Below are positions 1-29,416 of a DNA stretch of 64,000 nucleotides, piece by piece. The stretch spans positions 198,025,501 through 198,089,500 of the forward strand of contig NC_092587.1 in the NCBI RefSeq assembly GCF_047663525.1. The letters run 5' to 3'. How positions within the stretch are numbered: position 1 is the stretch's first letter; every line of letters starts with the position of its first letter. The position numbers and the translations under genes were made by a program. Source of the DNA: Anas platyrhynchos. Its lineage: Eukaryota; Chordata; Aves; Anseriformes; Anatidae. The notes below the pieces were generated by a model, which saw only the letters and a list, made by a program, of their open reading frames with translations, searched no databases and was not told where the DNA came from.

Positions 1-2445
1 GTTATGCAACTATTACACGCTTGTTTAGCTACAGCGTACATGCCTATACGTATATATTTTCTTAATACGGTGTCACACATTGCCTGGACTCCCCAGTGGC
101 TTCCTTGGTGTAGAACGGCTAACATTTCTCTCATTATCTGTTTGTTTACCATTTCTCTCCCATCAGGGAGAGTCCACCATCCTTCGGACTCCTTTGCTCC
201 TAATTCCCTAAAGGCTTCTATTTCCTTTTTACTGAATATTTGCTTTTCAGGTGGAGGTTTTATTTCAGGTACAAGAAGCAGCTTTGCTTCTACCTCTCAT
301 TGCAAAGCTGCTTCTTTAGCCTTTTCATCTGCAATCCTGTTTCCCCATTTAACTAGGGAGTTTCCTTTTCGATGTCCTTTCACGTGCACCACAGCAACCT
401 CCTCTGGTAGTAACAGACTTTCCAAAATCTGTCTAATTAATTCTTCATGAACCAATTCCTTTCCCTTCCTGTTTACTAAGTCCTTTTCTTCCCATATTTT
501 TCCAAATGCATGTACCACCCCATATGCATATTGTGAGTCAGTATATATAGTTCCCTGTTTCCCTTTTAATTATTTTAATGCTTGATTTAATGCATATAAT
601 TCACAGGTTTGAGCTGACCAATTGCTAGGCCGTCTTCCCATTTCTTCGACATTCCCATCCGGTCCTTCAATGATGCAATAACCATTACATCTCTTTCCTT
701 GTACCACCTTAGAAGACCCATCTGTAAACAATATTTCCCCTTCCTCTAAGGGCACCTCTTGCAAATCTAATCTTACCTTTGCCTGGTAATTTATTAAATG
801 TAAGCAGTTATGTTCCGTATTTATTGGATCCTCAATTCCCTTTGACAAGAAGGAGGCAGGATTCAAAACAGACTCTGTAGTTATAGTTAAATCATCCTTT
901 TCAATTAGTATAGCTTCATATTTTAGTATTCTGGAGTCTGTCAGCCACCTTCCTGCTTTCTGAGTGAGAATAGCCTTCACTTGGTGAGGGGTAGCAACAA
1001 TCAGTTGTCCTCCAAAGGTGAATTTCCTGCTCTCTTCTACTAATAAGGCAGTTGCTGCTACTGCCTGAATGCATTCTGGCCATCCCTGGGATACAGGGTC
1101 TAATAATTTAGACAAAGATGCTACAGGTTTCTTTTTATCTCCCATTCTTGGGTTAACACCCCCAAAGCAGCACCCTCACTTACAGTTATAAAAAGATAAA
1201 ATGATTTCTTTAGGGCAGGAAGAGCTAAGACTGGTGCTGTAATAAGGTCTTTTTTTAAAAAAAAATTTCCATTACTTCTTCTTCCTCTTTAATCCAGTTC
1301 AGTATATTAGGTTCTTCCTCCAATAATTTGAGATATAATTTCTCTGATTTCTGTGCATATGCTTCTATCCACAGTCTGCAATATCCAGTTCAACCCCCAA
1401 ATTTTCTCAACTCTTTCTTTGTTTTAGGGAGAGGAAGTCGCACAATTCCCTGAATCTCCTCAGGGTTTACTCTCCGTCTGCCCTCAGAGACTACATGTCC
1501 CAAATACTTAACCTCTTTTTCTACACACTGTAATTTATCTTCAGATACCCTTAGCCCGTGTTCTCCTAAAAAATTCAGGAGTTTATTGGTGGCTTCTTTT
1601 ACCTCCGATCTTTCTTCCCCAGATATCAATAAATTATACACATACTGTAACAACATCACCCCTTCTGGAATCTGAAATGTTTCTAAAATCTTTTCCAATT
1701 CTTGCCCAAACAAATTGGGAGATTCAGTGAATCCCTGAGGCAAAGCAGTCCATCTATATTGCTGTTTACGACCTGTCTCTGGGTCTTCCCATTCAAGTGC
1801 AAAAATGTATCGACTTTCAGGATCTAGTGGGCATGCCCAAAAGGCATCCTTTAAATCTATAACATTGAACCATTTGTGCTCATAAGGGATTTTACTCATC
1901 AGGGTATAAGGGTTAGGAACCACAGGGTGGTGCTTTCATGTTATCTTGTTAACTTTTCTCAGGTCTTGTACTAATCGGTACGAACCATCTGGCTTTCGTA
2001 CTGGTCAAATTGGAATGTTATATGGTGACATACAAGGCTCCAAAAGACCATCTTTAACTAAAGTTTGCACTATAGGTTTCAGGCCCATTTTTCCTTCACA
2101 AGAGATAGGATACTGTCGTTGTCTAACTCTTCCGCTCCCTTCTTGAACAGTTATCTTTAAGAGAGTTATGTTAAGCCCTCCTCGATTTCCTGCCCTTACC
2201 CATACCGTGGGATTTATTTCTTTTTCATCATTTTCTGTTAATAATTTCATTGCGACTGTTCTTCCTTTTTCACAGGTCTTCAATCATAATCCTAATTTGA
2301 CTATTAAATCTCTCCCTAATGTTATATATGGAGTGGTAATTCGTGTCGAGAAAATGGTTGATATTAATAAAGAAGGGGGAGATTTAGGAATGTGGCCATG
2401 GGGGTTGGAAAACCCCATGAGTGAGACAACATTAGACTCTTAACG
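1..2445 (-). mobile_element. Class I (gammaretrovirus-like) endogenous retrovirus, partial
   Basis: A fossil provirus on the minus strand, entering from the left window edge. Visible parts, from right to left, are the end of the protease, reverse transcriptase, RNase H and the beginning of integrase. The pol sequence type and the matching integrase in the next copy indicate a gammaretrovirus-like class I element. It is broken in several places. No gag and no 5' LTR are recognisable to its right. Confidence 0.88.
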
Positions 2446-3051
2446 ATGAGGCCATCAGGAATATCAAAGAGTTTAGAGGGAACACAGGGTGATTCAGGAG
2501 ACTCTGTGCAGTCTCCGGTTTCTTGTTCTCCAGCTGGTTCTCTTTTTCTCCAGCTGGTAAGGCATGGATGTTTCTGTGTGTTTGCTGTTGTTACATTCAA
2601 AGTTGTTTGACCAATGAAAAGTTGTTTTGAAAAGAACTGCTGTGGGGAGAAGGGGATAAGAGGGGAAACCGCCCTCAAGATAAAAAAGGCAGCACGATGA
2701 AGTTACATCAATAAAGAAGCAGGAAAAAGAAGTGAAGAGGAACAGGCTGGCAGAACGCAGACCAGGACGGTCTTTTGACACTTTGCTGTGCTGCAGGAGC
2801 GGGCTAGCTTGCAGCTTAACCTCCCTTGCCCCTGCTTTCAAGGGACTGGGAGGGTAAGGGGTGCATTGTCCCAGTGCATCCCAGCAACTCCTTGCACCTT
2901 CTGGCCGCTAGCAGCTCCTGGAAACTTCCCTCTCCGAGCTCTTGGCACCCCGATGGCTGCGTTGGCTTTCTGCCTGAGGAGCCCTGATGCCTTTGCTGGC
3001 AAGGGCATCCCTTCCTGGCCATGGTCTCAGCCAGGACTGTCTCTCCTGCAG
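2446..3051. other. Unassigned; LTR-like stretch and possible 5' flank
   Basis: No gene is recognised. The stretch 2570-2790 has LTR-like traits on the plus strand (a CCAAT-type motif, an A-rich TATA-like ATAAAAAAGG, then AATAAAG near 2711), but I cannot define its ends or family. From about 2790 to 3051 the sequence is GC-richer and ends in a pyrimidine tract plus CAG, which forms the acceptor of the next exon. Confidence 0.35.
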
Positions 3052-3309
3052 AGGTTAGGCACAACGGATTTGGCCACATGGGACCGAAGAGGTGTCCTCG
3101 CACAGCCAGAGTCTGGAGGAGTCATCGTCTTTCCCAGGTGAGTGTGCTGCGTCTGCAGCCCATGGCTGGCGTCAAGGCCAGGGCACTGCAACTACTGAGT
3201 GTGGTGGCCTGGAATCACACTGCTGTCCTCTTCTTGCTTCCAGGATTGGGCTCTACATTCCATCTGGAAGAGCTGCAGGGGGTAATCCAGTTCAAAGTCC
3301 CGAGAAGCA
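3052..3309 (+). CDS. Two short plus-strand exons, possibly of a CCDC81-like gene; second one interrupted
   Basis: Exon A is 3052-3137, with acceptor CTCTCCTGCAG and donor CAG/GTGAGT. Exon B starts at 3244 after CTTGCTTCCAG. They join in frame through the sequence VIVFPR-IGLYIPSGR. I do not recognise the protein. In copy 3 exon B runs on to a donor, but here it stops matching at about 3309, where the truncated AKAP-like copy begins. The reading frame stays open across that junction, so a chimeric transcript is possible. Assignment to a CCDC81-like gene rests only on the HU-domain exon downstream at 5823-6063. Confidence 0.4.
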
Positions 3310-3315
3310 GGATGA

Positions 3316-5852
3316 AAGCTGCCAGGGCGTGCCGGGGGCCGCTGCAGGGCAGCTCACAGCAGCACTTCTAGCGGGGACACGGAGCAGAATGGCAGAAATG
3401 GCCCAAGTAACTTGGCCTTTCTTCTCGCTTCTCTTGCAGATGGAGAAGAAGCCGCAAGACATCAAGACACTGCCTCACTGTGGGGTGAGGCAGGCCGAGA
3501 GAATCCAGCTGCCAGCCCTGCCGCCTTTGCCAAGGCAGGCAGCGACTCTCAAGCAAGTGCCTAAAGCAGAGACATCATTATCTGAAAAGGCCACTTGCAA
3601 GCTGCCCCCTCTGCAAGCAGCAGCCTCTGCAACTTCTGCCAGAGGAAGAGCAAAGGCATTGGGTACAGAGGCCCTCAGCCACCGAGAGCTTCTGCCACCT
3701 CTTCCATGCGTCTCTGCTGAGAGGGACAGGGCAGAGAGGGCAGAGAGGTGGGAACGTGTCCCACACAGCCCTGTGGCCCCTGCTGAGGATGTGGAGTACT
3801 CAGTACGGTCCTTCGTCTCCACAGTCATAAGAAATGCTGTAGCCAAGAGCAAGGCAAGGCTTTCTCCATCAGGCAGAGGTCCTAGGACCACAGGCCACAG
3901 AACACCACCTCTCCCCACAGCAGTGCCCTGGCATTTGAAGAAGAGCCGGCACCCTGCCCCACACAGCCCCACCGACTCTTTTACGGTGCTGCAGGACACA
4001 GCACTGTCTGTTGTGTCTGAAGCCATGTCAAAGGCGATGGCTAAAATGCGGCAACAAGGCCAATGACCGGCAGCAATGGGGGACCCAGTGACAGCAACAA
4101 CATGGGCAACACATGGGGTGCCCAGTGACAGCAACAAGATCAGCCGGCGTCCAGACTGACATGGAGAGCAGGTGGACCGCTGCTCTGCCAGCGTTCGATT
4201 GTCGGGGAGGTGCAAGAAAACCAACTGCCAGCAGAGACCATGCACCAGCCAGCCCAGGCAGGGTTGAAAAGCAAGAGCAAGAGAGAGCCCAAAACATCAA
4301 ACCCAGGCAGGGGAGCAGCAAGGAGGGGACAAGCCAGGGCCGAGGCAGGCAAGAAAGCGGTCCTGTGGGATGGGACCAAGAGGAAGAGATTGTCGTCATC
4401 AAGTCTGCGATCAACCCCAGGTTTGCCAGACTCTTCCAGGAACCACAGGCTTTTCCCCCGGAAGAAGGCAGCTCATCCAGCACCGTGGACAGGGAGGCCG
4501 CAGAAGAAGAAGCAGTAAACCCAACAAGCGCCTCTCTTGACTCATCAGAGTCCACGGACACTACACTGTCAGCTGCTTCCCTGGCAGAAGGTCCTGGGGA
4601 AGAGAGGCACGGCACACCTCTCACAGCACCAGCACCAGCACCAGCACCAGCACCAGCAGCAGCAGAGAGGACACCAGCGAGTCCTCTATCAGCCCCTATT
4701 TGCGAAGATGAGGGGTACAGAGCGCCTCCCCAGACACCTGGAGGTCAAGACTCAAAGCCATCAGCATGTCCCTGCCCCAGTGAGCACAGCACTGCGGTGC
4801 TGGTTGAGAGCCAGGGACGTGCACGACATGCCTCCAGTGTCTCTGAGGAAGAGCTGGATGAAACAGCCGAGATTGTCGTTGCTGCAGTGCTACTCCATTC
4901 TGTAGCCATCATGCAGGGAGCCACGAGCAAGGATCCAACTGCTCCCTCGGCTGCATAGCCCAGGGTGCCTCCTCCCACCCCAGAGCCTGTTGACTGTACA
5001 GCAGTTGATGAAACCGGAGCAGTGGCTACTCCCTTGGCTACGGTTCCTGGGCACCAGGTAAGCCCAGCGCGTGTGGTGGTCTCCAGGCACCGAGGGCAGC
5101 CCGAGGCAGAAGCAGTGCGTGGGGTGTGCGTGCTGGGGAGCTGCCTGCTGCTCTCCATTCCCAAACGCCCCAGGCACAAGGGCTGACATCCCTTCCATCA
5201 CCTACCTGTGCTCTTGCTCTCCCCATGCAGGTTGCTGCTGAGCAGGGAGGCCAAGCACAGTCCTCCTGCACCAGAGATACACCAGCAGACAAGCCAGCAA
5301 CGTGCCAGAAACAAGAGCCGTCCCGGGGACTTTTGGATGGGCCTGTTCAGAGCAGCGAGCAGGAGCAAGGGCTAGGAAAACGCAGGGGGGATGGCTGGTC
5401 CTGGGCCACCCCTTCCCTTGGGTGCTGGTGCGGGGGGAAGGCAGGGGCTTGCCCATCACCCGCTCAGGCCCTAACCTACACCTCTCTGTCTCCCACAGGC
5501 ATCCATGACCTCACACAAGCCCCGGCACACCAGCCACGGCCCGCCCACATCAGGAGACAGGCGCTTCAGGCTCTGCGCAGTGCTTTGTGCTGCAGCTTCA
5601 TCGCAGAAGAGTGGGAGTAGCAGCGCCCAGCTGCCAGCACCAGGAGGGCGCTCGGAGCTGTACGCTGACATCACTGAAAGGAACAGGACAGTGCCCCAGG
5701 AATTCAGATGCCCCTCCACATCCTGCCCCCAGCCTCAGCTCATCTGCAGCTGCCTTCTGCTGGGAATAAAAGCTCAGGCAGAGTTTTGCTCCCAGTGCTC
5801 CTCTCTGTGTCGTTGATCTCAGGAGAAAGAGTGGTGCAGACCACGCCAACCT
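3316..5852 (+). pseudogene. Truncated, broken paralogue of the AKAP-like gene
   Basis: The sequence is an inverted homologue of 16479-12658. Homology starts inside intron 1 of the intact gene, so the promoter and exon 1 are missing. The exon 2 equivalent is 3440-5057 (ATG right after CTCTTGCAG, donor CAG/GTAAGC), exon 3 starts at 5231, exon 4 is 5499-5620, and an AATAAA lies at 5765-5770. Exon 2 is about 1.24 kb shorter than in the intact gene: it has one of the two short helix units and one of the two ~302-residue units. It is broken by a stop at 4064-4066 followed by a frame change, by a stop at 4956-4958, and by loss of the exon 3 donor. Two helix motifs remain readable (VRSFVSTVIRNAVA and EIVVAAVLLHSVA). 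Present only in copies 1 and 2. Confidence 0.75.
4624..4662 (+). repeat. CAGCAC hexanucleotide repeat in the truncated paralogue
   Basis: An AP-dipeptide-coding tract inside the broken plus-strand paralogue. Copy 2 (27434-27466) is one hexamer shorter. Confidence 0.8.
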
Positions 5853-6063
5853 GCTTCCCGTAGCATTCAACACCGTGCAGCGCTGCATTCAGGAGACCCT
5901 GCTCTTTCTCTCCTACACCCTTGCAAAGAAGCAGGCTGTTGATTTCATCTTCAAGGACATCGGCCGTCTGGTCTCCCGCAAGAGCAGAGTCCAAATGCAC
6001 TTTTCCTCCGACTTTGTTCACAACCTGAATAGCAACGGCCAGCTGTTGAAATGCCGCCTCACT
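5823..6063 (+). CDS. CCDC81-like HU-domain exon
   Basis: The frame that reads NLLPVAFNTVQRCIQETLLF and then FIFKDIGRLVSRKSRVQMHF and FVHNLN matches the second HU (DNA-binding-protein-HU-like) domain of vertebrate CCDC81, whose human counterpart has KETLLFLSRS, FKGIGVL and VKMRFYKDF at the same spacing. CCDC81 is a centrosomal/ciliary protein. The exon follows an AG acceptor (TGATCTCAG) and ends at ACT/GTAAGT. The first ~30 bases are shared with the 3' flank of the intact AKAP-like gene, so the two genes were neighbours before rearrangement. No complete CCDC81-like gene can be assembled here, so it may be a remnant or part of a short paralogue. Confidence 0.65.
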
Positions 6064-6367
6064 GTAAGTTTCTCACTGCACCAGCACAGCCCAGGGCTCC
6101 TGGGAAATGCCCCAAGAGGCCGTTGGCGTGTTAGGAAACAGCTGGGGAAGAGGAAGGAGGCCCTGCAGGAAGGCAGGACCAAGAGCAGAGCTGTGGACAT
6201 CCCCGGGAAGACTGTGGAGGAGCTCCCGCTCTGGTAGTCCTCTGCTGCAACAGCCTTCTTTCCACAGCCCCTTGTTCAGTGAGGCCTCTGGGCTCTCACT
6301 GGCACCCTTCTCCCTGAAGGGAGCAGGGAGTGTCACTCAGCTCTCCTCTCTGGAGCGGAATCTTGAA

Positions 6368-6612
6368 CCTTTCCAGAGAATCACAGAATGGCTTGGGTTG
6401 CAATTGATGTTAAAGATCTTCTATTCCCTCCTGCCCCCTGCCATGGGCAGGGATGCCATTCACTAGAGCAAGTAGCCCAGTGCCTCATCCAAACAGGTCT
6501 TGAAGACCTCCAGGGATGGGGCATCCACGGCTTCTCTGGGCAAGCTGTTCCAGTGCCTCACCACCCTCTGTGTGAAGAAGTTTTGTGGCCACCAAGGAGC
6601 AGCTCTGACTAG
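6368..6612 (-). mobile_element. CR1 LINE 3' end
   Basis: Minus-strand CR1 fragment. The encoded end ([20 protein letters not shown] on the minus strand) is the typical C-terminus of CR1 ORF2, and the CR1 3' terminus (AGAATCACAGAATGG on the plus strand) lies at the low-coordinate end. It is severely 5'-truncated, as is usual for CR1, and sits in the intron between the HU-domain exon and exon 6635-6756. Absent from copy 3. Confidence 0.85.
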
Positions 6613-6634
6613 CCTTCTCTTTTCCTCCTGACAG

Positions 6635-6756
6635 GGATGCCTCCTGCTATTAAGAGCCGGCTGCTCACACCCCAGAGTCGCTCTCCAGCCAGACTCCAGG
6701 GCGACAGGGGAGGCACAGCTGGGCCAGGCTGCTGGGGGAAAAGAGCCTTCTCCCAG
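6635..6756 (+). CDS. Exon downstream of the HU-domain exon, function unknown
   Basis: Bounded by a TTTTCCTCCTGACAG acceptor and a CAG/GTGAGG donor, 122 bases. One frame is open and contains a SRSPARLQG stretch. It resembles no family I can name. Position suggests it follows the CCDC81-like HU exon. Copy 3 carries a diverged 124-base relative (49055-49178), and this length change argues against strong coding constraint. Confidence 0.4.
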
Positions 6757-7005
6757 GTGAGGCTGGGGGGCAGCTGGAGGAGGCAGCCCCTGGGCTCTTC
6801 CCCTTGAGTCAGCGAGCGGCTTTCCTTGGACAGGGGGACTTGGCCAGCTCCACAGGGGTCCCGACACATGTCCCACCCACTGCCCTTTCCTTGCTGGGCA
6901 GCCGTTTGCTGAGCAAAAGCTGTAGCAGCAAATCCTCCTCTTGTGTGCTTGCAGAATGCTGACAGCATTCATTCAGGAGAGCTCCTCGAGGATGGGAGAA
7001 GAGGG

Positions 7006-7732
7006 TGTAATAAATGGCTCAGTCTTCAAAATAGGACTATAATCAAAGTTTACAATTTATTAAAGGAATAGAGGTAAGCAAACAGCGATGGGTGCGCTGG
7101 GAGTCTCTGCTCCACCAAGACACCCACCAGTTACATCAAGCAGCTGATTTGTATGCTCCTAGGCTGATACATATTCATTACTACTTCTAAATAAAACAGG
7201 GTTATTATAATTAGTTTCTGGAATCCCAACTGGAGCATGTGTATCAGTCTCCGGTGGTCCCTCTGGGGGTCTCTGGGGGGTCTCTCGTGCTGAAGGCTCA
7301 TAGTCTTCCTCCCTCTTGTCCTTCTCCTTTGTCCAACTTGGCTGTATGTCAGAGACTTGTGCAACATCCCCTGCAAGCTTTGTCTTTTAGTTGTTCTTCA
7401 GCTCTCGCCATCTCCTTAATCTCCTGGCCAGATATCAGAGACTTGCATAGTGTCCCATGCAATAGTCATAATAGTTAGCAGTTATTCTGAAACCCCCCAG
7501 ATATCAGAGACTTCAAGGAAGAGCCTACAAATGCATTGCCCTTCAAGCTCTCTATTGACACGAATTGCTAAACCATTCCTTTGCAAGATACGAGAATTAT
7601 ATACGTTAACCACTCTGTTCTTCTTAGACTTGTGGTTATACAAGGGTATGTAAGACAGAAGGTCACATTCATCATACCATGCGGCCCTAGCATTGTTCCA
7701 TACTGACACAAATCAGATGAACATATCTCACA
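7006..7732 (-). mobile_element. ERVL-like solo LTR
   Basis: A 727-base LTR on the minus strand: minus-strand start TGTGAGATATG, end CATTTATTACA. An AATAAATTG polyadenylation region near 7055 and the general layout resemble avian ERVL-type LTRs; the family is assigned from memory of such sequences. AGGG flanks both sides (7002-7005 and 7733-7736), a candidate target-site duplication. Three copies of a TCAGAGACTT core (near 7351, 7434 and 7506) show short internal repeats. No internal retroviral genes are present. Confidence 0.65.
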
Positions 7733-8496
7733 AGGGGAAGGGCAAGCGCTGTGCTGCAGCCTGGCCCCAAACTCAAGCCCCTGCCTGCGAGGCTCACCAG
7801 AGAGCAGGACAAGTAGCCACTGCATCTGTGTGCCCATTGCCGGGCTGTTTCACGGGTTGCCTTTGTGGAGATTTGATGTTTCTCTCTAATCGTTGCATGC
7901 TCAGCACAAAGCATGTTTTTGCAGGCATTGCTCTCCTGCGCACACTGCCAGTGTACAGCCAGGGAAGCAGCTGCTGCAGCAGCTCAGAGCAGAAGGCCAC
8001 GGTTGTTCACTCACCCAATGCAGCTGCAAAGGAGCCTCCATTTTTTCGGGGAACTCCAGGCCTCTGGGTACAGCAAGGGACAGGGTTCCCCTATCTCTGG
8101 TTCTCTCTCTCCCCTCTTTGCTGGGAGGCTCTGGATGAGGGCCTCTACTTCTCTGATTTGGCAGGTGGCTGCCACAGCTTGCACCACGGCTTCTCCTTGG
8201 GCCAGACCTCAGAAAAGAGACACTGGTCCTCGCAGAGAGCTGCCGCCTGCTGGAAAAGCAAGACCAGGTTGTTGAGCAAAAGCTATAGCAGCAAATCCTC
8301 GTCTTGTGTGCTTGCAAGATGCTGGCAATGCATCAGGTGAGCTCCACAAGGATGGCAGAACAGGGATAGGGTTGTTACAAGGGTAGTGCTTCTGAAGATT
8401 TGACGTTTCTCTAACCACTTCATGCCCTTCTCCCCTGCAGGAAATAGGCTGCCTGTGCCGCCAGCAAGACAAAAGAACTCTGAGAAGAACTTCAGA
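7733..8496. other. Unassigned stretch between the LTR and the VDAC2 retrocopy
   Basis: Several pyrimidine-AG acceptor-like sites and one long plus-strand open frame (7693-8340) occur, but no family is recognised. The segment 8255-8345 is a relative of 6890-6995 and 11690-11815 (shared core TTGTGTGCTTGCA). The last part, 8443-8496, after CCCTGCAG, abuts the VDAC2 fragment. Confidence 0.3.
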
Positions 8497-9003
8497 GAAG
8501 TTGTTCCTTGTCAATTTTGCTTTGGCACTATCAAAAGTCATCTGCTAACCAACCAGCCAGCCTTCATAACCGAAGACAGCTGAACCATGGATTGCAGGCC
8601 CAGCAAAGTCAAAGTCAACATCACAACCGAGGTTTAGGCATTCACGTTTATATGCTGACTTGATTTTACCACTCTTCTTTCCTGTATTTGGTGAGAAAGT
8701 TGTATCAAACGTCAACTTCAAGCCTTTGGCAATCTGATCTTCAATTGCAATTTCTGTTCCCAGAGTGTTATCTGTGTTCCGTTTTTCTGTGAAAGTCAGC
8801 CCATACTCAGCCCACTTGTATTTGGTCTCCAAGCTCCCATTAACTTTTCCAGTGTCGGTGTTCGAAGAACCAGATGTTGTGAACTCCACCCCACTTGCAG
8901 ATTTTGTTTTCACATCCAGCTTCACCAACCCAAACCCATATCCTTTATTGAAGGTATCTCTGGCAGATTTGCCAAGGTCTGCGTACGACGGAGGAATTGC
9001 CAT
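8497..9003 (-). pseudogene. VDAC2 processed retrocopy, 3'-truncated
   Basis: Intronless minus-strand frame starting [16 protein letters not shown] and keeping the VDAC2-type residues [12 protein letters not shown] and [23 protein letters not shown]2 is the mitochondrial outer-membrane voltage-dependent anion channel of about 283 residues; the homology here covers 169 codons and ends abruptly after LTRNNF at 8497. The family's TEKWNTDN reads [12 protein letters not shown] replaces the Tyr of the GYQMTF segment. It is a multi-exon host gene without introns, so a LINE-mediated retrocopy, cut at its 3' end by rearrangement. Confidence 0.9.
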
Positions 9004-9327
9004 TGGAGCTGGCTGGCGCGGGAGGGCGGCTTAGCTCTGCCACGAAGCTTCTCTCCAAGAGAAAAACCTGCCCTTTCTGAGCCTTGTTTTCCTTCGTGAA
9101 GGATGAGGGCTCCTGCAAAGCCTGCTGCCCTGGAAGTGTTCTTGCCCTTAGCTTCAGAGGCCGAGGGCTGGGGCCTTTCATGCTGCCTTTCTGAGAGAAA
9201 GCAGGCTGCAGGGAAACTGCCCTGAGCCTGGGGAAACCCTGAGGGGATGACTGCCCCACTGCCATGGGACAGCTCGCACATTAGCACTCCCCTCTAAAAA
9301 TGCTCCCTGTTTCTGCTTCCCCTGTAG

Positions 9328-10024
9328 CAGAAGATGCAGGCGGAAATGCAGAGGCTGCAGAGGGGGTGTGCTTCCTCCATGGCACTCATGGACCTGAAGA
9401 ACGCTCTGCAGCTGGTACCAGTGGAGATGAAGCATCAGCATGTCCTCATCCCTCTCCCTCCAGCGAAGAAGGCTGAGGCAGCTCCCCTCAGCAAATCAAG
9501 TGCCAGGTAAGTGTGGGCCAGCTCCCACAAAGGCCAGGAAAAGCTGAGCTGCATCAGGCTGCCCGAGGGATCCAGCATGCGGGTTGCTCAGCTCTGGGCT
9601 TTGGCTCTCCATCCCCTGGCTGCTTCGGGGAGGCAATGACTGTGGAGAGGACCTTGCCTCCAGACGTTCCCCTGCAGACCCAAAGTCCTGAAGCTCCCCT
9701 GCAGCCGACAGTCACGTACCCACAGTGGAAGGGGGCTGTGCTCCCTGCTCCTGGGGCTGGGGGCAGGCAGAGCTGGGGACCTTCAGATCCTACCTGAGAG
9801 TTTTTTTCTCTGTTGATGCAGCTACCAATTAGTACGGAGTGTGCGGGCGGGGAAAGTGATGGAGAAGAGAAAGGAGGCCTGGAAAATCACTGGGCTGCGG
9901 CGCACTGCCTCTGTCTTGCTTCCGCGATTGCGCTCTACACACATTTCTTATTTCATTTCATTAAGATGTAATATTTATCTTTATTTCAATAATATTTATC
10001 TTTATTTCATTAAGATTTAATAAA
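9328..10024 (+). CDS. Two-exon 3' end of an unrecognised gene, with poly(A) signal
   Basis: The penultimate exon is 9328-9506 (acceptor CTTCCCCTGTAG, donor CAG/GTAAGT). The last exon starts at 9822 after CTCTGTTGATGCAG. They join in frame and encode, in part, KMQAEMQRLQRGC, DLKNALQLVPVEM, PLPPAKKAEAAPLSKSSA and SVRAGKVMEKRKEAWKITG. The frame stops at 10018-10020, overlapping an AATAAA at 10019-10024. The first part looks helical and charged. I do not recognise the family. It could be the tail of the plus-strand gene containing the CCDC81-like exon, but the intervening LTR and VDAC2 fragment make that uncertain. Confidence 0.45.
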
Positions 10025-12127
10025 CAAACAAACGGCTGTTCTACAGTTTTCTTTCCACACCCGAATGGATCACTGTGCACGCTCCGCGGGGCCTGCTCGA
10101 GGTTTGTACGGGCCAGAAATGAGAGAGCTTCATTCTCGGTACCGGGTTGCTCAGCTCGCTGGTGGCCCTACAGGAAAGATGCTCCCTGAGTGCACAGAGA
10201 GAGAGAGAAAAGCTGCTCCCCGACAGGGCAGCTCCTGACCCTTCCTCTGACAGCCCTGGCGGCCATTTGGCAGTTCTGCCTGCCCCCCCGCGCCACAAGC
10301 TGGCTGAGGCCTTGGCCTGTCCGCAGCACGGCTGTCAGTGGTGTCGGGCGGCATCTAGAGCCAAGAGGCCTTTCCTTTTCTTTGTGCTGAAGGAAACTTT
10401 GTGCTGTCTGGAGAGGCAGTGCCTCTTTGCTCCAAGTCTTGCAGGGTTGCCTCTCACTTTGAGGGCCCTGTTTTTCGTCAGCATTTGTGAGGGGCTTCTG
10501 CATGCGCCCCGCTCACTTGTTGCGGCCAGGGCTTCCCCCCAGGATGTCTGGGCAGGCCCATGCCGCTGGGCAGGCTCTGGGTGGGCCTCGTTCCCTGCAG
10601 GGGCAGGCGTCTGCCCCTGAGCCCAGAGCCCAGGAGCGGCTCCTGCACTCGCGGCTGCCCCTGCGCGGGCTGCTGCCGCTGCTTCTGGAACCTTCCTGCA
10701 GCCTCTGGCAGCTGGCGCCTGCGTGGCGGCCGCACGTTGGGCTTGGCAGCCTGGCATCTGCAGGCCGTGCCAGCCTGCAGCATGGCATTGGCGGCCTTGT
10801 TGCCGTCCCCAGGGCACGGCTGAAAGGGGATTTGGGGCATTTGCTTTCCAGGGGCTGGGCACGTTGGGGATGCAATACCCCACCACGTGCACAGGCAGTT
10901 CGCACTGAACAAGGTGGGCTTTGCAGCCTCGTCCTGCCCTCGTAGCCTGCTCCCTCCTGCAGCTGCCACCCCACAGCCCGCCTCCTCAAGCAGAAGAAAT
11001 GCCCCAGCGGTAGCCTGCAAAGTGCAGGTGTGCCAGGGGCCCCTTGCTGCTCTGGCAATATGCACAACAGAAGAGCCCAGCTCCAGCAGAAGGACGGGAT
11101 GCGTACTGCCTGGCGCTTGTGCGTTGCCTGTGGCCCGAGTGGGCAAGCCAGCATGTAGCCAGAGCCGGTTCTCAAGGCTTTCCCTATTAGTTGGGAACCC
11201 CGTGGAGGGTTTTTCCTGAGCTGAGGGTGTTGGCTGTGCTCTTCCTAGCCCAGCTCTTCTGTAGGGGGCAAAAAGGAGGGAGCTGGGAAGCTCCCAGACA
11301 CTGAGGCCATCTCCAGGGCTCTCCGCAGTGACGCCATCTGGCACCTTCCCATGAGCAGTGGCCAAAGCACAAGGGCCCATCTTCTTTGTTGGGGAAGCCC
11401 CGCGCTGCATTTCCAGTGCCAGAAATGCTTAAATACTGTTCCTCCTTTCTTGCTTTTCAGCGTGTCTTAGTACCTGGGCTGGGTGCCTCCTTCCTTATTA
11501 AAGTGGGGCTGCTCTTGTTTTTTGCTTTGAGCTCCTCCAGGTAAAGAAGCCCACTTTTCAGCTCTCGGAGAACTTTGCCTGTCTTCCCGGAGTCCCACAT
11601 AAGAAAGAAAGAGACTTTTCCTGTTTCTTTCTCAGGTGAATTTGGCCGCATCGGCAGAAAAAGTGTCCTGACACATGTCCTACTGACTGTCTTTTCCTTG
11701 CCGGGCAGCTGCTTGGTGAGCACCGGCTGTTGCAGCACTTCCTCCCCTTGTGTGCTTGCAGGCTGCTGACAGCACGTCAGGAGAGCTTGCAGGCTGCTGA
11801 CAGCACGTCAGGTTCTTGCAGTGGAAAATTCCACTAACCTTGCATTTTCAAAAGGGATTGTGCGGGCATGGCAGTAGCATACCAGGTGAAGTATTTTAAG
11901 CAGATAAGGGGAATGTCCCACAGTCGCAAAATGAGGAGGATAGCTAAGAAAAGCAGGAGAATCAGGGCAAAAATCAGTAACAAACAAATAAATAAATAAA
12001 TAAATCACGGGCATTCTGGTCACGAGAGATGAAGAAAAAAATAATTAAAAAAAAAAAAAGGAAAAGGGGAAAATAAAGGTTGGTCAAATAAAATTGTACA
12101 TATATGGTGTAGTAGTAAGCATCGCGT
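10025..12127. other. GC-rich stretch with overlapping open frames, no gene assigned
   Basis: Open frames overlap on both strands (for example 10478-11410 minus), as expected in GC-rich sequence, and none matches a known family. It contains the inverted low-copy segment 10385-10910, a module at 11690-11815 related to 6890-6995, an AAAT tetranucleotide run near 11986-12005 and a poly(A) run near 12047-12059 just before the CR1 fragment. Confidence 0.4.
10385..10910 (-). repeat. Low-copy segment, inverted relative to 19368 and 20386
   Basis: Read on the minus strand, this segment contains two blocks found again on the plus strand of the same unit. Block 1 (GTGCACGTGGTGGG, GCATCCCCA, CCCTGGAA) matches 19368-19440. 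Block 2 (GCCAAGCCCAACGTGCGGCC, GCAGCGGCAGCAGCCCGCGC) matches 20386-20575. The sequence is GC-rich and open in several frames. Its origin is not recognised. Confidence 0.7.
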
Positions 12128-12738: not shown

Positions 12739-12744
12739 TTTATT
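12739..12744 (-). promoter_or_regulatory. AATAAA poly(A) signal of the AKAP-like gene
   Basis: AATAAA on the minus strand, about 180 bases after the stop codon. The same signal is kept at 5765-5770 in the truncated plus-strand paralogue. Confidence 0.7.
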
Positions 12745-12921: not shown

Positions 12922-15900
12922 CTACTCTCGCTGTCCTGCGATGCAGCTGCAGCGGAAAGCCCTGCGCAGCGCGCGAAGTGCCCTCCTGATGCGGGAGGGC
13001 CGTGGCTGGCGCGCCGGGGCTTGTGCGAGGTCAAGGGTGCCTGTGGGGGACACAGAGGTGTAGGTTAGGGCCTGAGCGGGTGCTGGGCGAGCCTGTCCCC
13101 CCCTCCAAGGCCTTTCCCCGGGGAGGGGTGGCCCAGGACCAGCCAGCCCCCCTGCGCGTGGTGCTGCCAACCTTGTGCTTGGTGCTGCTCGCTGCGCTGA
13201 ACAGGCCCGGCCAACAGATCCTGGGACGGCGCTTGTGTCTGGGACGTTGCTGGCTCATCCGCTGGCGTATCTTTGGTGCAGGAGGAGGACTGCGCTTGGC
13301 CTCCCTGCTCAATGGCCACCTGCATGGGGAGAGGAACAGCACGGGCAGCTGAGGAAAGGGATGTCAGCCCTTGTGCCTGGGGCATGTGGAAATGCAGAGC
13401 AGCAAGCAGCTCCCGGCACGCACACCCAATGCACTGCTTCTGCCTGGGGCCGCCCTGGATGCCTGGTGCCCACCACGTGTGCTGTGCTTACCTGGTGCCC
13501 AGGAACCAAGGGAGTGGCTGCTGCTCCTGCTTCGTCAGCTGCTGCTGGGCGGAGATCTGTGATGGCCTCCTGGAGAGGCTCTGCAGCCAAAGGAGAAGCC
13601 CCTTCTCCACCTTCTTCTTGTGGCATTGCTGCTGCAGCGAGAGGGGCTTCATTGGCCTCCCCCACAGGGCCTCTGGCCAAGGCAGAGGCCGAGGATGTAC
13701 ATTCTGCAGGCTCTGGTGTGGGAGGAGGCACCCTGGGCACTGTGACCCAGGGAGCACTTGCTGCCTTGCTTGGGGCTCCCGCTCCCTGGATGATGGCTAC
13801 AGAGTGGAGTAGGACTGCAGCCACGATGGTGTCAACTCTTTCATCCAGCTCTTCATCAGAGACACTGCAGGCATGTCGGGCACGTCCCTGGCTCTCCACC
13901 ATCACGGCAGCGCTGTGCTCGCTGGGGCTTGCACAGGCTGATGGTTTTGACTGTGGAGCCCCACGTGTCAGGGGAGGCGTCCTGTGTCCCTCATCTTCCA
14001 GAGCAGGGGCTGCTGGAGGACTTGCTGGCCTGCTCTGTGCTGCTGTTGTTGTGGTGAGAGGCGTGCTGTGCCTCTCTTCCCCAGGAATTTCTTCCTGGGG
14101 AGCAGCTGATGGGACAGTGTCCGTGGTTTGCAGCGAGCCAGGAGAGGCGCTTGCTGGGTGTTCTGCTTCTTGTGCTGCCTCCCTTTCCACACTGCTGGCT
14201 GCGCTGCCCTCTTCCTGGGGAACGTCCTGTGCGTCTGTGAAGAGGCTGGCGAACCTGGGGTTGATCCAGGAGTTGATGATGACGATCTCCTCCTCTTCAT
14301 CCCATCCCCCAGGACTGCTTTCTTTCTTGCCCCGGCCTTGGCTTGTCCCCTCGTTGCCTGTCCCCTGCCTGGGTTTGACGTGTTTCTCTCTCTGTTGTTT
14401 TTTCTTCTTACCCTGGCCTGGGCTAGCTGCTGCAGGGTCTCTGCTGGAAGCCCTTGCTCCTGCGCATACCCGGGAATCAGGCCCTGGCAGAGCAGTGGTC
14501 CGCCTCCTCTCCATGTCTGTCTGGACCCCGGCTGATCTCGTTGCTCTCCCTGTGCTCCCCGTGTGTGCCAAGTCCCCCAGTGCTCCAGCCAAGGCAGATG
14601 CTGAGGATGTAGAGTCTGCAGGCTCTGCTGTGGGAGGAGGCACGCTGGGTCCTGTGGCCGAGGGAGCACTTGGTGCCTTGCTCACGGCTCCCTGGCTCAT
14701 GGCTTCAGCACGGCGTATGACTGTGGAAACGATGGTCTTGACTCCTTCATCCAGCTTGTCATCACAGGCACTGGAGGCATGTCGGGCACGTCCCTGGCTC
14801 TCAACCATCACCGCAGTGCTGTGCTCACTGGGGCTTGGAGAGGCCGATGGTTTTGACTGTGGAGCCCCACGTGTCAGGGGAGGCATCCTGTGTCCCTCAT
14901 CTTCCAGAGCAGGGGCTGCTGGAGGACTTGCTGTCCTGCTCTGTGCTGCTGTTGTTGAAGTGAGAGGCGTGCTGTGCCTCTCTTCCCCAGGAATTTCTTC
15001 CTGGGGAGCAGCTGATGGGACAGTGTCCGTGGTTTGCAGCGAGCCAGGAGAGGCGCTTGCTGGGTGTTCTGCTTCTTGTGCTGCCTCCCTGTCCACACTG
15101 CTGGCTGCGCTGCCCTCTTCCTGGGGAACGTCCTGTGCGTCTGTGAAGAGGCTGGCGAACCTGGGGTTGATCCAGGAGTTGATGATGACGACCTCCTCTT
15201 CATCGCATCCCCCAGGACTGCTCTCTTTCTTGCCCCGGCCTTGGCTTGTCCCCTCGTTGCCTGTCCCCTGCCTGGGTTTGATGTGTTTCTCTCTCTGTTG
15301 TTTTTTCTTCTTACCCTGGCCTGGGCTAGCTGCTGCAGGGTCTCTGCTGGAAGCCCTTGCTCCTGCGCATACCCGGGAATCAGGCCCTGGCAGAGAAGTC
15401 GTCCACGTCCTCTCCAGGTCTGTCTGGACCCCGGCTGAACTTGTTGCTCTCAATTTGCACCCCGTTTGTGCCAGGTCCCCAAGTGCTGCTGATCGTTGGC
15501 CGTGTTCCCAGCTTTTTTGCGTCTTCTGCAGCACTTCAGACACGCGGGAGTGTGCTGTGTCCTGCAGTGCCGTGCAAGAGTCTGCAGGGCTGTGTGGGGC
15601 AGGGTGCCAGCTCTTCTTTAAATTCTGGGGCCCAGTTGCGGGCTGAGGTGGTGTTCTGTGTCCTTTGCTCGTGGGAGGTCTGCCCACGGGAGGAAGCCTT
15701 GCCTCCCTCATGGCTCCCTGGTTCCAGGCAAGGCCATTTCTTATTGCAGTGGAGACAAAGGCCTTTATTCGGTCTTCCATTTCTTCGTCAGGGGATGCAA
15801 GGCTGCTTTTGGACGAGTGCCGACTCTTCCAGTTTTGGGCCGCTGCTGTGGTGAGAGGTGGTGTTCTGGGGCCTTTGGTCCTGGGAACTCTGCTTGAGGG

Positions 15901-17023
15901 AGAAAGCCTTGCCTTGCTGCTGGCTCCCTCGTTGCAGGCTACAGCGTTTGTTATGACGGTGGACACAAAGGACCGTATTGCATTGCCCATGTCCTCGTCA
16001 GGGGCCACAGGGCTGTGTGGGCCACGTTCCCGCCTCTCTGCCCTCACTGCTCTGTCCCTGTTGCCAGAGATGCAGGGAAGAGGTGGCAAAAGCTCTTGCT
16101 GGCTGCGGGCCTCTGTTCCCAATGACTTTGCCCTTCCTCCCCCTGAAGAAGCAGAGGCTGCTGCTTGCAGAGGGGGCAGCTTGCAAGTGGCCTTTTCAGA
16201 TGATGATGTCTCTGCTTTAGGCACTTGCTTGGGTGCTGCTGCCTGAGTCGCTGCCTGCCTTGGCAAAGGCGGCAGGGCTGGCAGCTGGATTCTCTCGGCC
16301 TGCCTCACCCCACGGTGAGGCAGTGTCTTGATGTCTTGCGGCTTCTTCTCCATCTGCAAGAGAAGCGAGAAGAAAGGCCAAGTTACTTGGGCCATTTCTG
16401 CCATTCTGCTCCGTGTCCCCACTAGAAGTGCTGCTGTGAGCTGCCCTGCAGCGGCCCCCGGCACGCCCTGGCAGCTGCCCACGCAGAGCGGGGCTCAGCC
16501 TGCCAGGGTAATGCCCTGCCTGTCTCCTCCTGCGAGTGCTGCCTGCTCATCGCAGGCTGCCAGGGCTGCCAAAGATGTTCGACCGAACCGTCCTGGGGCT
16601 CCCGACTCCGTGTGGCAGCTGCCAGTGTGACGCACGCTCTCTGGGCACGACCGCACCGGCAGCCTGTCCGCATGGAGGGACGGTGGAGGCAGCTCCTGGC
16701 TGCGCACAGCCAGGTTGAATTAGGCCACGCTGCTCTTTGTGCCTGTGGGCACAGAACTGCCAGGGCCACATGGGCTTTGGCTGTCCTGGGGGTGGGCTCT
16801 TCATGGAGAAACCCCAGGTTTGGGAACAACTGTGTCCAGGCCGGAGGGGCTCAGGGCCAGCTGGCCGGCTCGCTCCAGCACCGTTCTCCTCATCCTGGTG
16901 CTCTCGGTGCCATCCCGTCACACTGCTGTCCCTGTCTCGCTCCCTGAGCCTCACCTGGCGCCGCTCCTGCACGCTCCGCTGCCCTTCAGCGGGCTGGGAG
17001 TCATCCTTATTCTGCTGCTCCAT
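12922..17023 (-). CDS. Four-exon gene for a 1065-residue AKAP-like repeat protein
   Basis: Exons are 17023-16955 (23 codons, starts MEQQNKDDSQ), 16353-13492 (954 codons, starts MEKKPQDIK), 13319-13172 and 13040-12922. All introns are GT...AG (GTGAGG, GTAAGC, GTTGGC donors; the last is weak). Phases fit, giving 1065 residues without a stop. The ATG lies about 109 bases below a TATA box. The protein is Ser/Pro/Ala-rich and probably disordered, with no signal peptide or membrane segment. Four amphipathic helices of the same pattern lie near residues 142-163, 212-233, 554-575 and 856-877, for example IRSFVSTVITNAVA; spacing of hydrophobic residues fits the PKA RII-anchoring consensus. Residues about 330-915 are two tandem ~302-residue units, each with a KKKKQQREK basic stretch, an acidic EEE stretch and INPRFASLF. 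The C-terminus is basic with CSC. An AKAP-like scaffold is inferred; the family is not recognised. Confidence 0.75.
13680..15435 (-). repeat. Internal tandem duplication of a ~302-codon coding unit
   Basis: Within exon 2, unit 1 (15435-14533) and unit 2 (14532 to about 13680) both begin AGVQTD and both end near STSSASALA, with a period of 903-906 bases that preserves the frame. Each ends in one amphipathic helix. Two shorter helix units of about 70 codons precede them. The truncated paralogue at 3316-5852 has one of each kind. Confidence 0.9.
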
Positions 17024-17131: not shown

Positions 17132-17217
17132 CTTTATAAGGGACACCGTTGCCGTGGGTACCCCTCCGTGTCACAATGGCCTTTGGGTACGCATCACAAT
17201 GCCCCGGTGGTTGCCAT
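17132..17217 (-). promoter_or_regulatory. Promoter of the AKAP-like gene: TATA box and X-box-like sites
   Basis: On the minus strand TATAAAG lies at 17138-17132. Ten bases upstream is GGTACCCACGGCAAC (17162-17148), which fits the RFX X-box consensus GTNRCC-N(0-3)-RGYAAC with one mismatch. A second GGCAAC half-site lies in CCATGGCAACC (around 17217-17209). RFX factors drive many ciliary and testis genes. Transcription would start near 17105. Confidence 0.6.
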
Positions 17218-17531
17218 GGGGCCCTCAAGCCCATATTCTGGCAGACACCCCAGGGACACCGTCTCACACACCCACAGCAGGATCTGCATTGGCAGGTACC
17301 TCTGGCTCCTTCCAGCCAGTGCCCCCGGCTCAGCCCCAGCTCAGTCTTTCTCAGGGCAGTTAGCTTAGCTCCCTAACTGCTCCCAGGTAACTGCGCGTTA
17401 CCTGCTCTGCCAGGAGATGCTCTGCTCGGTCGTCCGCGTAAGCTTCCTGGCTCTTTTGCCTGACTGCCCACACATCAGCAGAGACTGCACTCGAGCTTGG
17501 ACGCCCATCAGGCCACCCTGGCAGTGCAGCT

Positions 17532-19477: not shown

Positions 19478-19737
19478 CTGTCTGAAAGGCAAGCATCAAG
19501 AATGCGGACATGTCAGAGGAGGAGCAGCAAGATGCTGTTGATTGCGCCACTCAGGCCTTGGCGAAGCACATCGAGAAGGGCATTGCTGCGCACATCGGGA
19601 AGGAATTTGACAAGAAATAGAATCCCACTTGGCACTGCAACACAGGAGGGAACTGCGGCAGCTACGTGACTCCTGAGAGCACGCACTTCACCTACTTCTA
19701 GCTCAGCCAAGTTGCTATTCTTTTCGAGTCTGGTTAG
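19478..19737 (+). pseudogene. Dynein light chain (DYNLL1/2) processed retrocopy
   Basis: The plus strand encodes [20 protein letters not shown], then [26 protein letters not shown] and SQVAILFESG, collinear with the 89-residue LC8 dynein light chain (DYNLL). LC8 is a dimeric hub protein that binds dynein intermediate chain and many partners. It is intronless. The initiator ATG is CTG, about four bases are lost near the start, two conserved Tyr codons have become TAG (after EFDKK and after HFTYF), and two residues are missing. It mixes DYNLL1- and DYNLL2-type residues, so the parent is undecided. Confidence 0.88.
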
Positions 19738-26125: not shown

Positions 26126-28656
26126 AAGCTGCCAGGGCGTGCCGGGGGCCGCTGCAGGGCAGCTCACAGCAGCACTTCTAGCGGGGACACGGAGCAGAAT
26201 GGCAGAAATGGCCCAAGTAACTTGGCCTTTCTTCTCGCTTCTCTTGCAGATGGAGAAGAAGCCGCAAGACATCAAGACACTGCCTCACTGTGGGGTGAGG
26301 CAGGCCGAGAGAATCCAGCTGCCAGCCCTGCCGCCTTTGCCAAGGCAGGCAGCGACTCTCAAGCAAGTGCCTAAAGCAGAGACATCATTATCTGAAAAGG
26401 CCACTTGCAAGCTGCCCCCTCTGCAAGCAGCAGCCTCTGCAACTTCTGCCAGAGGAAGAGCAAAGGCATTGGGTACAGAGGCCCTCAGCCACCGAGAGCT
26501 TCTGCCACCTCTTCCATGCGTCTCTGCTGAGAGGGACAGGGCAGAGAGGGCAGAGAGGTGGGAACGTGTCCCACACAGCCCTGTGGCCACTGCTGAGGAT
26601 GTGGAGTACTCAGTACGGTCCTTCGTCTCCACAGTCATAAGAAATGCTGTAGCCAAGAGCAAGGCAAGGCTTTCTCCATCAGGCAGAGGTCCTAGGACCA
26701 CAGGCCACAGAACACCACCTCTCCCCACAGCAGTGCCCTGGCATTTGAAGAAGAGCCGGCACCCTGCCCCACACAGCCCCACCGACTCTTTTACGGTGCT
26801 GCAGGACACAGCACTGTCTGTTGTGTCTGAAGCCATGTCAAAGGCGATGGCTAAAATGCGGCAACAAGGCCAATGACCGGCAGCAATGGGGGACCCAGTG
26901 ACAGCAACAACATGGGCAACACATGGGGTGCCCAGTGACAGCAACAAGATCAGCCGGCGTCCAGACTGACATGGAGAGCAGGTGGACCGCTGCTCTGCCA
27001 GCGTTCGATTGTCGGGGAGGTGCAAGAAAACCAACTGCCAGCAGAGACCATGCACCAGCCAGCCCAGGCAGGGTTGAAAAGCAAGAGCAAGAGAGAGCCC
27101 AAAACATCAAACCCAGGCAGGGGAGCAGCAAGGAGGGGACAAGCCAGGGCCGAGGCAGGCAAGAAAGCGGTCCTGTGGGATGGGACCAAGAGGAAGAGAT
27201 TGTCGTCATCAAGTCTGCGATCAACCCCAGGTTTGCCAGACTCTTCCAGGAACCACAGGCTTTTCCCCCGGAAGAAGGCAGCTCATCCAGCACCGTGGAC
27301 AGGGAGGCCGCAGAAGAAGAAGCAGTAAACCCAACAAGCGCCTCTCTTGACTCATCAGAGTCCACGGACACTACACTGTCAGCTGCTTCCCTGGCAGAAG
27401 GTCCTGGGGAAGAGAGGCACGGCACACCTCTCACAGCACCAGCACCAGCACCAGCACCAGCAGCAGCAGAGAGGACACCAGCGAGTCCTCTATCAGCCCC
27501 TATTTGCGAAGATGAGGGGTACAGAGCGCCTCCCCAGACACCTGGAGGTCAAGACTCAAAGCCATCAGCATGTCCCTGCCCCAGTGAGCACAGCACTGCG
27601 GTGCTGGTTGAGAGCCAGGGACGTGCACGACATGCCTCCAGTGTCTCTGAGGAAGAGCTGGATGAAACAGCCGAGATTGTCGTTGCTGCAGTGCTACTCC
27701 ATTCTGTAGCCATCATGCAGGGAGCCACGAGCAAGGATCCAACTGCTCCCTCGGCTGCATAGCCCAGGGTGCCTCCTCCCACCCCAGAGCCTGTTGACTG
27801 TACAGCAGTTGATGAAACCGGAGCAGTGGCTACTCCCTTGGCTACGGTTCCTGGGCACCAGGTAAGCCCAGCGCGTGTGGTGGTCTCCAGGCACCGAGGG
27901 CAGCCCGAGGCAGAAGCAGTGCGTGGGGTGTGCGTGCTGGGGAGCTGCCTGCTGCTCTCCATTCCCAAACGCCCCAGGCACAAGGGCTGACATCCCTTCC
28001 ATCACCTACCTGTGCTCTTGCTCTCCCCATGCAGGTTGCTGCTGAGCAGGGAGGCCAAGCACAGTCCTCCTGCACCAGAGATACACCAGCAGACAAGCCA
28101 GCAACGTGCCAGAAACAAGAGCCGTCCCGGGGACTTTTGGATGGGCCTGTTCAGAGCAGCGAGCAGGAGCAAGGGCTAGGAAAACGCAGGGGGGATGGCT
28201 GGTCCTGGGCCACCCCTTCCCTTGGGTGCTGGTGCGGGGGGAAGGCAGGGGCTTGCCCATCACCCGCTCAGGCCCTAACCTACACCTCTCTGTCTCCCAC
28301 AGGCATCCATGACCTCACACAAGCCCCGGCACACCAGCCACGGCCCGCCCACATCAGGAGACAGGCGCTTCAGGCTCTGCGCAGTGCTTTGTGCTGCAGC
28401 TTCATCGCAGAAGAGTGGGAGTAGCAGCGCCCAGCTGCCAGCACCAGGAGGGCGCTCGGAGCTGTACGCTGACATCACTGAAAGGAACAGGACAGTGCCC
28501 CAGGAATTCAGATGCCCCTCCACATCCTGCCCCCAGCCTCAGCTCATCTGCAGCTGCCTTCTGCTGGGAATAAAAGCTCAGGCAGAGTTTTGCTCCCAGT
28601 GCTCCTCTCTGTGTCGTTGATCTCAGGAGAAAGAGTGGTGCAGACCACGCCAACCT
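26126..28656 (+). pseudogene. Truncated, broken paralogue of the AKAP-like gene, copy 2
   Basis: Same structure and same breaks as 3316-5852. A CAGCAC hexamer tract is one unit (6 bases) shorter, which leaves the frame unchanged. One visible residue change lies just before the first helix (P to A in copy 1, T to A here). Confidence 0.75.
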
Positions 28657-28867
28657 GCTTCCCGTAGCATTCAACACCGTGCAGCGCTGCATTCAGGAGA
28701 CCCTGCTCTTTCTCTCCTACACCCTTGCAAAGAAGCAGGCTGTTGATTTCATCTTCAAGGACATCGGCCGTCTGGTCTCCCGCAAGAGCAGAGTCCAAAT
28801 GCACTTTTCCTCCGACTTTGTTCACAACCTGAATAGCAACGGCCAGCTGTTGAAATGCCGCCTCACT
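28627..28867 (+). CDS. CCDC81-like HU-domain exon, copy 2
   Basis: Identical in layout to 5823-6063, with the same acceptor, donor and conserved HU-domain residues. Copy 3 has no equivalent. Confidence 0.65.
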
Positions 28868-29171
28868 GTAAGTTTCTCACTGCACCAGCACAGCCCAGGG
28901 CTCCTGGGAAATGCCCCAAGAGGCCGTTGGCGTGTTAGGAAACAGCTGGGGAAGAGGAAGGAGGCCCTGCAGGAAGGCAGGACCAAGAGCAGAGCTGTGG
29001 ACATCCCCGGGAAGACTGTGGAGGAGCTCCCGCTCTGGTAGTCCTCTGCTGCAACAGCCTTCTTTCCACAGCCCCTTGTTCAGTGAGGCCTCTGGGCTCT
29101 CACTGGCACCCTTCTCCCTGAAGGGAGCAGGGAGTGTCACTCAGCTCTCCTCTCTGGAGCGGAATCTTGAA

Positions 29172-29416
29172 CCTTTCCAGAGAATCACAGAATGGCTTGG
29201 GTTGCAATTGATGTTAAAGATCTTCTATTCCCTCCTGCCCCCTGCCATGGGCAGGGATGCCATTCACTAGAGCAAGTAGCCCAGTGCCTCATCCAAACAG
29301 GTCTTGAAGACCTCCAGGGATGGGGCATCCACGGCTTCTCTGGGCAAGCTGTTCCAGTGCCTCACCACCCTCTGTGTGAAGAAGTTTTGTGGCCACCAAG
29401 GAGCAGCTCTGACTAG
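29172..29416 (-). mobile_element. CR1 LINE 3' end, copy 2
   Basis: Array copy of the CR1 fragment at 6368-6612. Confidence 0.85.

Follow-up and report, generated by a model that had tools for sequence, protein, structure and literature searches.

The window analysed here is a 64,000-nucleotide stretch of the duck genome (Anas platyrhynchos, contig NC_092587.1, positions 198,025,501 to 198,089,500, forward strand), a tandem array with a period of 22.81 kb in which a four-exon gene of 1065 codons is repeated on the minus strand. This gene very probably belongs to a real gene family of birds, uncharacterised and amplified in waterfowl. The product repeats an amphipathic helix and ends in a basic helix with a CxC-type tail that other birds share. 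From its sequence, we tentatively read the protein as a membrane-tethered multivalent docking scaffold for domains of the RII type of protein kinase A (PKA).

The gene lies at 12922-17023, and the earlier exon model was reproduced to the base. Its exons and transcript signals, with the two further array copies, are as follows.

16955..17023, minus strand: exon 1, codons 1-23, beginning MEQQNKDDSQPA..., by eye resembling MPMDEEANARSQPA... of Neoaves relatives
13492..16353, minus strand: exon 2, 954 codons, no fold predicted; contains five amphipathic helices and a 0.9-kb internal duplication
13172..13319, minus strand: exon 3 of the exon model
12922..13040, minus strand: exon 4 of the exon model, with the stop
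12739..12744, minus strand: AATAAA, about 180 bases past the stop
17133..17138, minus strand: TATAAA, about 110 bases 5' of the start codon
35729..39830, minus strand: the gene in array copy 2, open over 1065 codons
55348..59449, minus strand: the gene in array copy 3, open over 1065 codons

The introns are all GT/AG, with a weak donor at exon 3 (AAG/GTTGGC). An earlier note on this DNA had claimed a 1065-codon frame open in three array copies, and we found the same model intact in all three. A protein search returned a duck database protein of 1065 aa (P0001) with 99% identity and an identical exon-4 tail, which was possibly predicted from the same assembly and is thus not fully independent of the window gene. 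Long open frames are cheap at exon 2, because its antisense strand carries an 856-aa open frame (13076-15646, plus strand). Inside exon 2 this frame spans 717 codons, a length that none of 200 codon-shuffled versions reached, perhaps owing to the internal duplication.

Relatives were found in many birds. No match with an organism name came from outside birds; the protein searches scored only some 8000 candidates, picked by exact 5-residue words in common, and could have missed relatives elsewhere. Within the Anatidae the relatives come from Anser cygnoides and Cygnus olor, and three goose and swan proteins (P0005, P0006 and P0008) show 65, 72 and 71% identity to P0001 across long frames. The Neoaves relatives come from Morphnus, Haliaeetus, Buteo, Harpia, Aquila, Calonectris and Strigops, and further ones from Theristicus, Nyctibius, Podargus, Falco, Phoenicopterus and Phalacrocorax. 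The first exons are alike by eye, as in duck (MEQQNKDDSQPAEGQRSVQERRQ) and Buteo (MPMDEEANARSQPADRLPSLQKRS). Family members bear misleading automatic names, such as sialidase-like, futsch-like, calphotin-like and treacle-like. The duck full-length clusters P0001-P0003 comprise 25, 13 and 3 member sequences, probably array copies for the most part, and keep about 1060 codons. In a tree of an N-terminal stretch, from which the 4 of 19 rows without that stretch were left out, the three duck sequences form one group (support 94/88) and the two goose sequences another (97/90), as would be seen if amplification or homogenisation took place within each lineage.

The product had been described as matching no recognised family, and this was borne out: the exon 2 product and full-length P0001 gave no Pfam match above cut-off, and the exon 2 product gave no PDB match up to E 10. 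PDB searches with P0021 and with one duck helix returned nothing relevant. Literature searches on this gene, or on an avian A-kinase anchoring protein (AKAP), gave no fitting entry among those listed.

The earlier note had listed four helices. All four strings are present in the gene product; the count was incomplete, and a fifth, degenerate helix is added here (residues 280-313, 44 bits with the helix profile).

15943..15978, minus strand: helix 1, IRSFVSTVITNA, residues 149-160
15733..15768, minus strand: helix 2, IKAFVSTAIRNG, residues 219-230
15520..15555, minus strand: fifth helix, AHSRVSEVLQKT, residues 290-301, resembling the Theristicus form ALQDTAHCIVSKV
14707..14742, minus strand: helix 3, VKTIVSTVIRRA, residues 561-572
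13801..13836, minus strand: helix 4, VDTIVAAVLLHS, residues 863-874

Helices 3 and 4 lie within the internal 0.9-kb duplication and are therefore not independent. The RII-anchoring pattern is [AVLISE]xx[AVLIF][AVLI]xx[AVLI][AVLIF]xx[AVLISE]; it was not found in the passages cited here. Three of the five duck helices fit this motif fully, so that the amphipathic RII-type pattern is present. P0001 has 5 hits to a loose form of the motif, where composition shuffles give 1.2 (p 0.010), and 3 hits to a stricter form, where they give 0.15 (p 0.001). Across the 31 family proteins the loose form is in excess at p <=0.05 in 18. The loose motif alone is weak evidence, because two of its five hits in P0001 (SASALAGALGDL and ALRALRRAFRCS) fall outside the four helices. 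It was ruled out as proof by these stray hits, together with the lack of excess in 13 of the 31 proteins, including P0020, P0021, P0022 and P0026.

Searched with a helix profile, 24 of the 31 proteins yielded 75 instances scoring 9 bits or more, 28 of them non-redundant; goose P0005 has six sites. The profile was built from 17 seeds picked by eye, which makes its column statistics partly circular: among the 28 helices, positions 1, 4, 5, 8 and 9 are hydrophobic in 96, 93, 96, 100 and 93%, and positions 2, 6, 7 and 11 in 0, 7, 18 and 0%. Position 12 is hydrophobic in 68%, being mostly Ala and otherwise small, and the full AKAP motif is satisfied by 19 of the 28. Hydrophobic residues also fill positions -3 and 13 in 93%, and the hydrophobic stripe is thus longer than the AKAP motif. 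In duck, goose, swan and several Neoaves the helix recurs, can be aligned and has largely kept its amphipathic character.

An AlphaFold2 model from 25 rows formed helices at 122-139, 188-216, 256-283, 532-553 and 833-856 of exon 2 and nothing else. All five helix sites lie inside these helices; in 20,000 random placements, three sites were covered 36 times and four or five never. A second model from 13 Anatidae-type rows gave the same five long helices and five shorter ones, two of which lie in the two W-N-P modules described below. The models support helix propensity only, because their confidence is so low: the mean predicted local distance difference test score (pLDDT) was 31.6 in the first, with no residue above 50, and 30.5 in the second, which likewise stayed below 50 throughout.

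The AKAP-likeness of the helices was measured with a matrix from 26 family helices, against which seven AKAP peptides and four control helices were scored with 2000 shuffles each; the MAP2 letters were confirmed in PDB 8s8o. Shuffles scored as well as the real peptide in 7 cases for MAP2, 10 for D-AKAP2 and 11 for AKAP-IS, so these three were clearly recognised, and in 105 cases for AKAP79, which is marginal. None of the four non-AKAP controls was recognised (602, 844, 1253 and 847 of 2000), doing no better than shuffles. Positions 1 and 12, with small residues, and positions 5 and 8, with V, also fit the AKAP type. The helices may on this basis be docking helices for PKA-type domains, a possibility that we regard as somewhat doubtful. 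The interpretation as an anchoring scaffold is partly borne out, by the bird family, the repeated helices and the recognition of MAP2, AKAP-IS and D-AKAP2; its further element, a gene kept open, stands on weak ground, as described below.

Several results weigh against the docking scaffold, besides the profile's circularity, the loose motif and the model confidence given above. The family matrix failed on Ht31, AKAP18 and D-AKAP1 (347, 780 and 1530 of 2000 shuffles), and the profile search of PDB chains, up to E 10, returned no AKAP among 5 hits. Within the Anatidae, identity in the helices does not exceed that in the remainder of the protein; being about equal or lower, it offers no usable conservation test, and this approach was set aside. 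Hydrophobic anchors are kept in goose P0005 at 26 of 26 sites against 179 of 232 other hydrophobic positions. Restricted to bulky residues, the comparison becomes 22 of 22 versus 86 of 101 (p 0.04). The other seven rows gave p 0.05-0.59; over the eight rows of this control the anchors are at best marginally better kept. The acidic W-N-P motif is absent from 5 of the 31 proteins (P0023, P0026, P0028, P0030 and P0031). The C-terminal tail is missing in 14 of 31, which end otherwise; some of these are clearly incomplete or alternatively spliced models.

These failures bear on a different account, in which the protein is real and its helices are functional but bind one another, a different helical partner or a membrane instead of a PKA-type domain. 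The hydrophobic spacing 1-4-5-8-9-12 is common to many amphipathic helices, the stripe extends past the motif at both ends (positions -3 and 13), none of the 5 PDB profile hits has to do with AKAPs, and three of the seven AKAP peptides went unrecognised, with one marginal. Set against the rejection of all four controls, the clear recognition of three AKAP helices and the AKAP-type residues at positions 1, 5, 8 and 12, these points leave such pairing a serious possibility, which we nevertheless think rather unlikely.

For docking to PKA-type domains, one of the closest likenesses is with MAP2. MAP2 is a microtubule-binding protein, in which it differs from the duck protein. Its helix in PDB 8s8o, an RII binder, is likewise of the IVxxVxxxAVAVLKG type ended by glycine, and MAP2 gave the best-scoring peptide in the matrix test. 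Passages of PMC11367651 cover this structurally characterised RII binding and the glycine at the helix end, and describe the protein as disordered. PKA is not the sole candidate partner, because SPA17/ROPN1L dimers also bind AKAP helices, according to passages of PMC8339350. Among the sperm fibrous-sheath proteins AKAP3 and AKAP4, two PKA-binding sites are reported for AKAP4 in passages of PMC11276731, a parallel to the multi-helix duck protein. In Pfam the duck protein gave no AKAP match and merely a sub-threshold NUC153 match. SmAKAP appeared in one of 15 scanned family members at E 2.5 and carries no weight.

One further candidate was FSIP2. Residues 78-198 of P0021 (Theristicus) match Pfam FSIP2 at E 3.4e-9, above the curated cut-off. 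This was the only one of the 15 scanned members, with no match in the duck protein, and the link was dropped on that ground. A segment of P0019 resembling the FSIP2 part of P0021 did not score, and the precomputed Pfam entry for P0027 is PF20363 only.

Besides the helices and the first exon, two more elements recur in the family. The acidic W-N-P motif IWVNPLVPELFQDP (duck SWINPRFASLFTDAQ) occurs one to five times in 26 of the 31 proteins, and a tail like RPSxFRRALRALRRAFxCxC is present in 17 of 31, including duck, goose and swan. Nine of the 17 are Neoaves proteins from eight genera (Buteo, Calonectris, Strigops with two, Theristicus, Nyctibius, Podargus, Falco and Phalacrocorax). The positions in the duck gene are given below, those of the W-N-P modules computed from residue numbers.

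15118..15192, minus strand: acidic/W-N-P module, copy 1, NSWINPRFASLFTDAQDVPQEE
14212..14286, minus strand: acidic/W-N-P module, copy 2
12925..13002, minus strand: basic amphipathic C-terminal helix and CxC tail, RPSRIRRALRALRRAFRCSCIAGQRE, common to Neoaves proteins

The basic helix with CxC-type tail is a new observation, beyond the earlier note. In duck it is strongly basic and has the highest helical moment among proline-free 16-mers, with the cysteines after it. It is possibly a lipid-modified membrane anchor.

The gene had also been proposed to be kept open while its neighbourhood decays. From the window itself this is weak. Identity is 99.7% between array copies 1 and 2 and 99.2-99.7% between copies 1 and 3; the copies are too young, and their being open in all three therefore cannot demonstrate selection. 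The ratio of nonsynonymous to synonymous rates (dN/dS), proposed earlier as a check, came to 0.53 (8 nonsynonymous, 5 synonymous), 0.71 (13, 6) and 1.2 (11, 3) for the array copies and to 0.86 (45, 17) for the internal repeats. Coding differences (0.41, 0.59 and 0.44%) are not consistently rarer than mismatches in the aligned unit (0.21, 0.58 and 0.57%). These figures suit another explanation, that the duck array is near-neutral amplified sequence from an old gene, whose copies drift and make little or no protein. The unit also contains a broken paralog, probable retrocopies and retroelement pieces, as such an account would have it.

The gene was also compared with an inverted paralog (B) in the unit.

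3317..5830, plus strand: paralog B of the gene, inverted; its pieces are 75-88% identical, its frame is broken and nothing in it matches exon 1

Against B, dN/dS was 0.56 (p 0.014) for the first piece, and for the second 0.78 (p 0.13) with repeat 1 and 0.63 (p 0.016) with repeat 2; the combined values were 0.70 (p 0.013) and 0.61 (p 0.001). Part of this divergence is unconstrained, because the frame of B is broken. Codon-position counts against B (26/25/38, p 0.17; 61/49/60, p 0.46; 59/44/64, p 0.14) were significant in none of the three comparisons, which again suits drift. The comparison with B suggests mild selective constraint on the duck gene, and constraint within duck appears weak. The long goose and swan frames at 65-72% identity argue for a coding function, with the caveat that frames that have closed would not appear in a protein database; it is these open frames in other birds that lend the earlier proposal support. 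As the three window copies and clusters P0001-P0003 keep about 1060 codons, dN/dS against B lies at 0.56-0.78 (p 0.001-0.13), and goose, swan and Neoaves relatives have long frames, we consider neutral drift of the array unlikely.

The repeat unit contains other sequences. The third unit lacks the stretch matching about 3318-6602, that is B and its flank, which is present at 3317-6602 and 26127-29407; the lost stretch begins at the start of the megablast match between the gene (A) and B. Retroelement RNase H and reverse transcriptase pieces were found at 306-737 and 1492-2001 (minus strand), a VDAC-like porin match in a 152-codon open frame at 8497-8994 (minus strand; probably a truncated retrocopy) and a dynein light chain type 1 match at 19486-19722 (plus strand; E 1.5e-22; probably a retrocopy). 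The Pfam scan of the minus strand covered two of the three frames of 1-11400, plus exon 2.

Adjoining B, an HU-CCDC81_euk_2 match was found at 5869-6036 (plus strand, E 6e-14), and HU1-like remnants, judged by eye, lie near 10.8-11.5 kb. CCDC81 family function is centrosomal or ciliary. One could imagine the frame as having split off from a CCDC81-like gene that carries HU domains, and as having a CCDC81-like function, since the HU-domain exon lies in the same repeat unit and two predicted duck proteins (P0030 and P0031) join HU domains to the N-terminal region of the family. These joins may be gene-prediction fusions. No HU-CCDC81 domain matched exon 2 or full-length P0001, none was among the best 25 of 29 families for the 15 scanned members, and exon 1 and the exon 4 tail are common to Neoaves proteins in which no HU domain was found. 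We judge this origin highly improbable.

Two sites resembling an RFX half-site lie 5' of exon 1.

17148-17157 and 17210-17219, strand not assigned: two GTTGCCNTGG sites, RFX half-site-like, a weak lead

The exact 10-mer GTTGCCNTGG occurs only 5' of exon 1, twice per copy, with 6 in the window against 1.27 expected, a count in which the 10-mer was picked after the site was seen and the three array copies are not independent. GTTGCC is given as a half-site of the RFX-type motif in passages of PMC2797782. A degenerate X-box scan of the unit showed no enrichment (6 rows against 8.35 expected), nor did a 14-base X-box pattern with <=3 mismatches (32 against 34.2). A promoter X-box was rejected on these broader scans, and the sites are kept merely as a weak lead. 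Together, the hints of a ciliary flavour around the gene are weak.

In the mechanism that we propose, the protein would be a mostly disordered scaffold of neognath birds from an uncharacterised family. A typical member has a short first exon, the repeated W-N-P motif and amphipathic helix, and the basic C-terminal helix with CxC-type tail. The helices would fold on contact and dock into docking/dimerisation (D/D) domains, presumably those of PKA RII or of related proteins such as ROPN1L/SPA17, and one chain could hold several docking-domain dimers. The CxC tail, probably palmitoylated, would tie the chain to the membrane. In waterfowl the gene has undergone tandem amplification.

Passages of PMC11276731 state that fibrous-sheath ribs and columns are absent in Neognathae. 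A bolder proposal, which we think quite improbable, is that a bird-specific scaffold family, with up to six D/D-docking helices on a single disordered chain tied to the membrane, arose in neognaths, took over flagellar PKA and R2D2 anchoring, and in ducks expanded to dozens of copies.

If the helices do not bind PKA-type domains, this would still be a widespread bird gene family hidden by misleading automatic names. If they do, the gene would encode an undescribed multi-site anchoring scaffold present in many copies in waterfowl. It would then bear on cAMP signalling in the simplified neognath sperm tail, and would offer a natural case of change in scaffold copy number.

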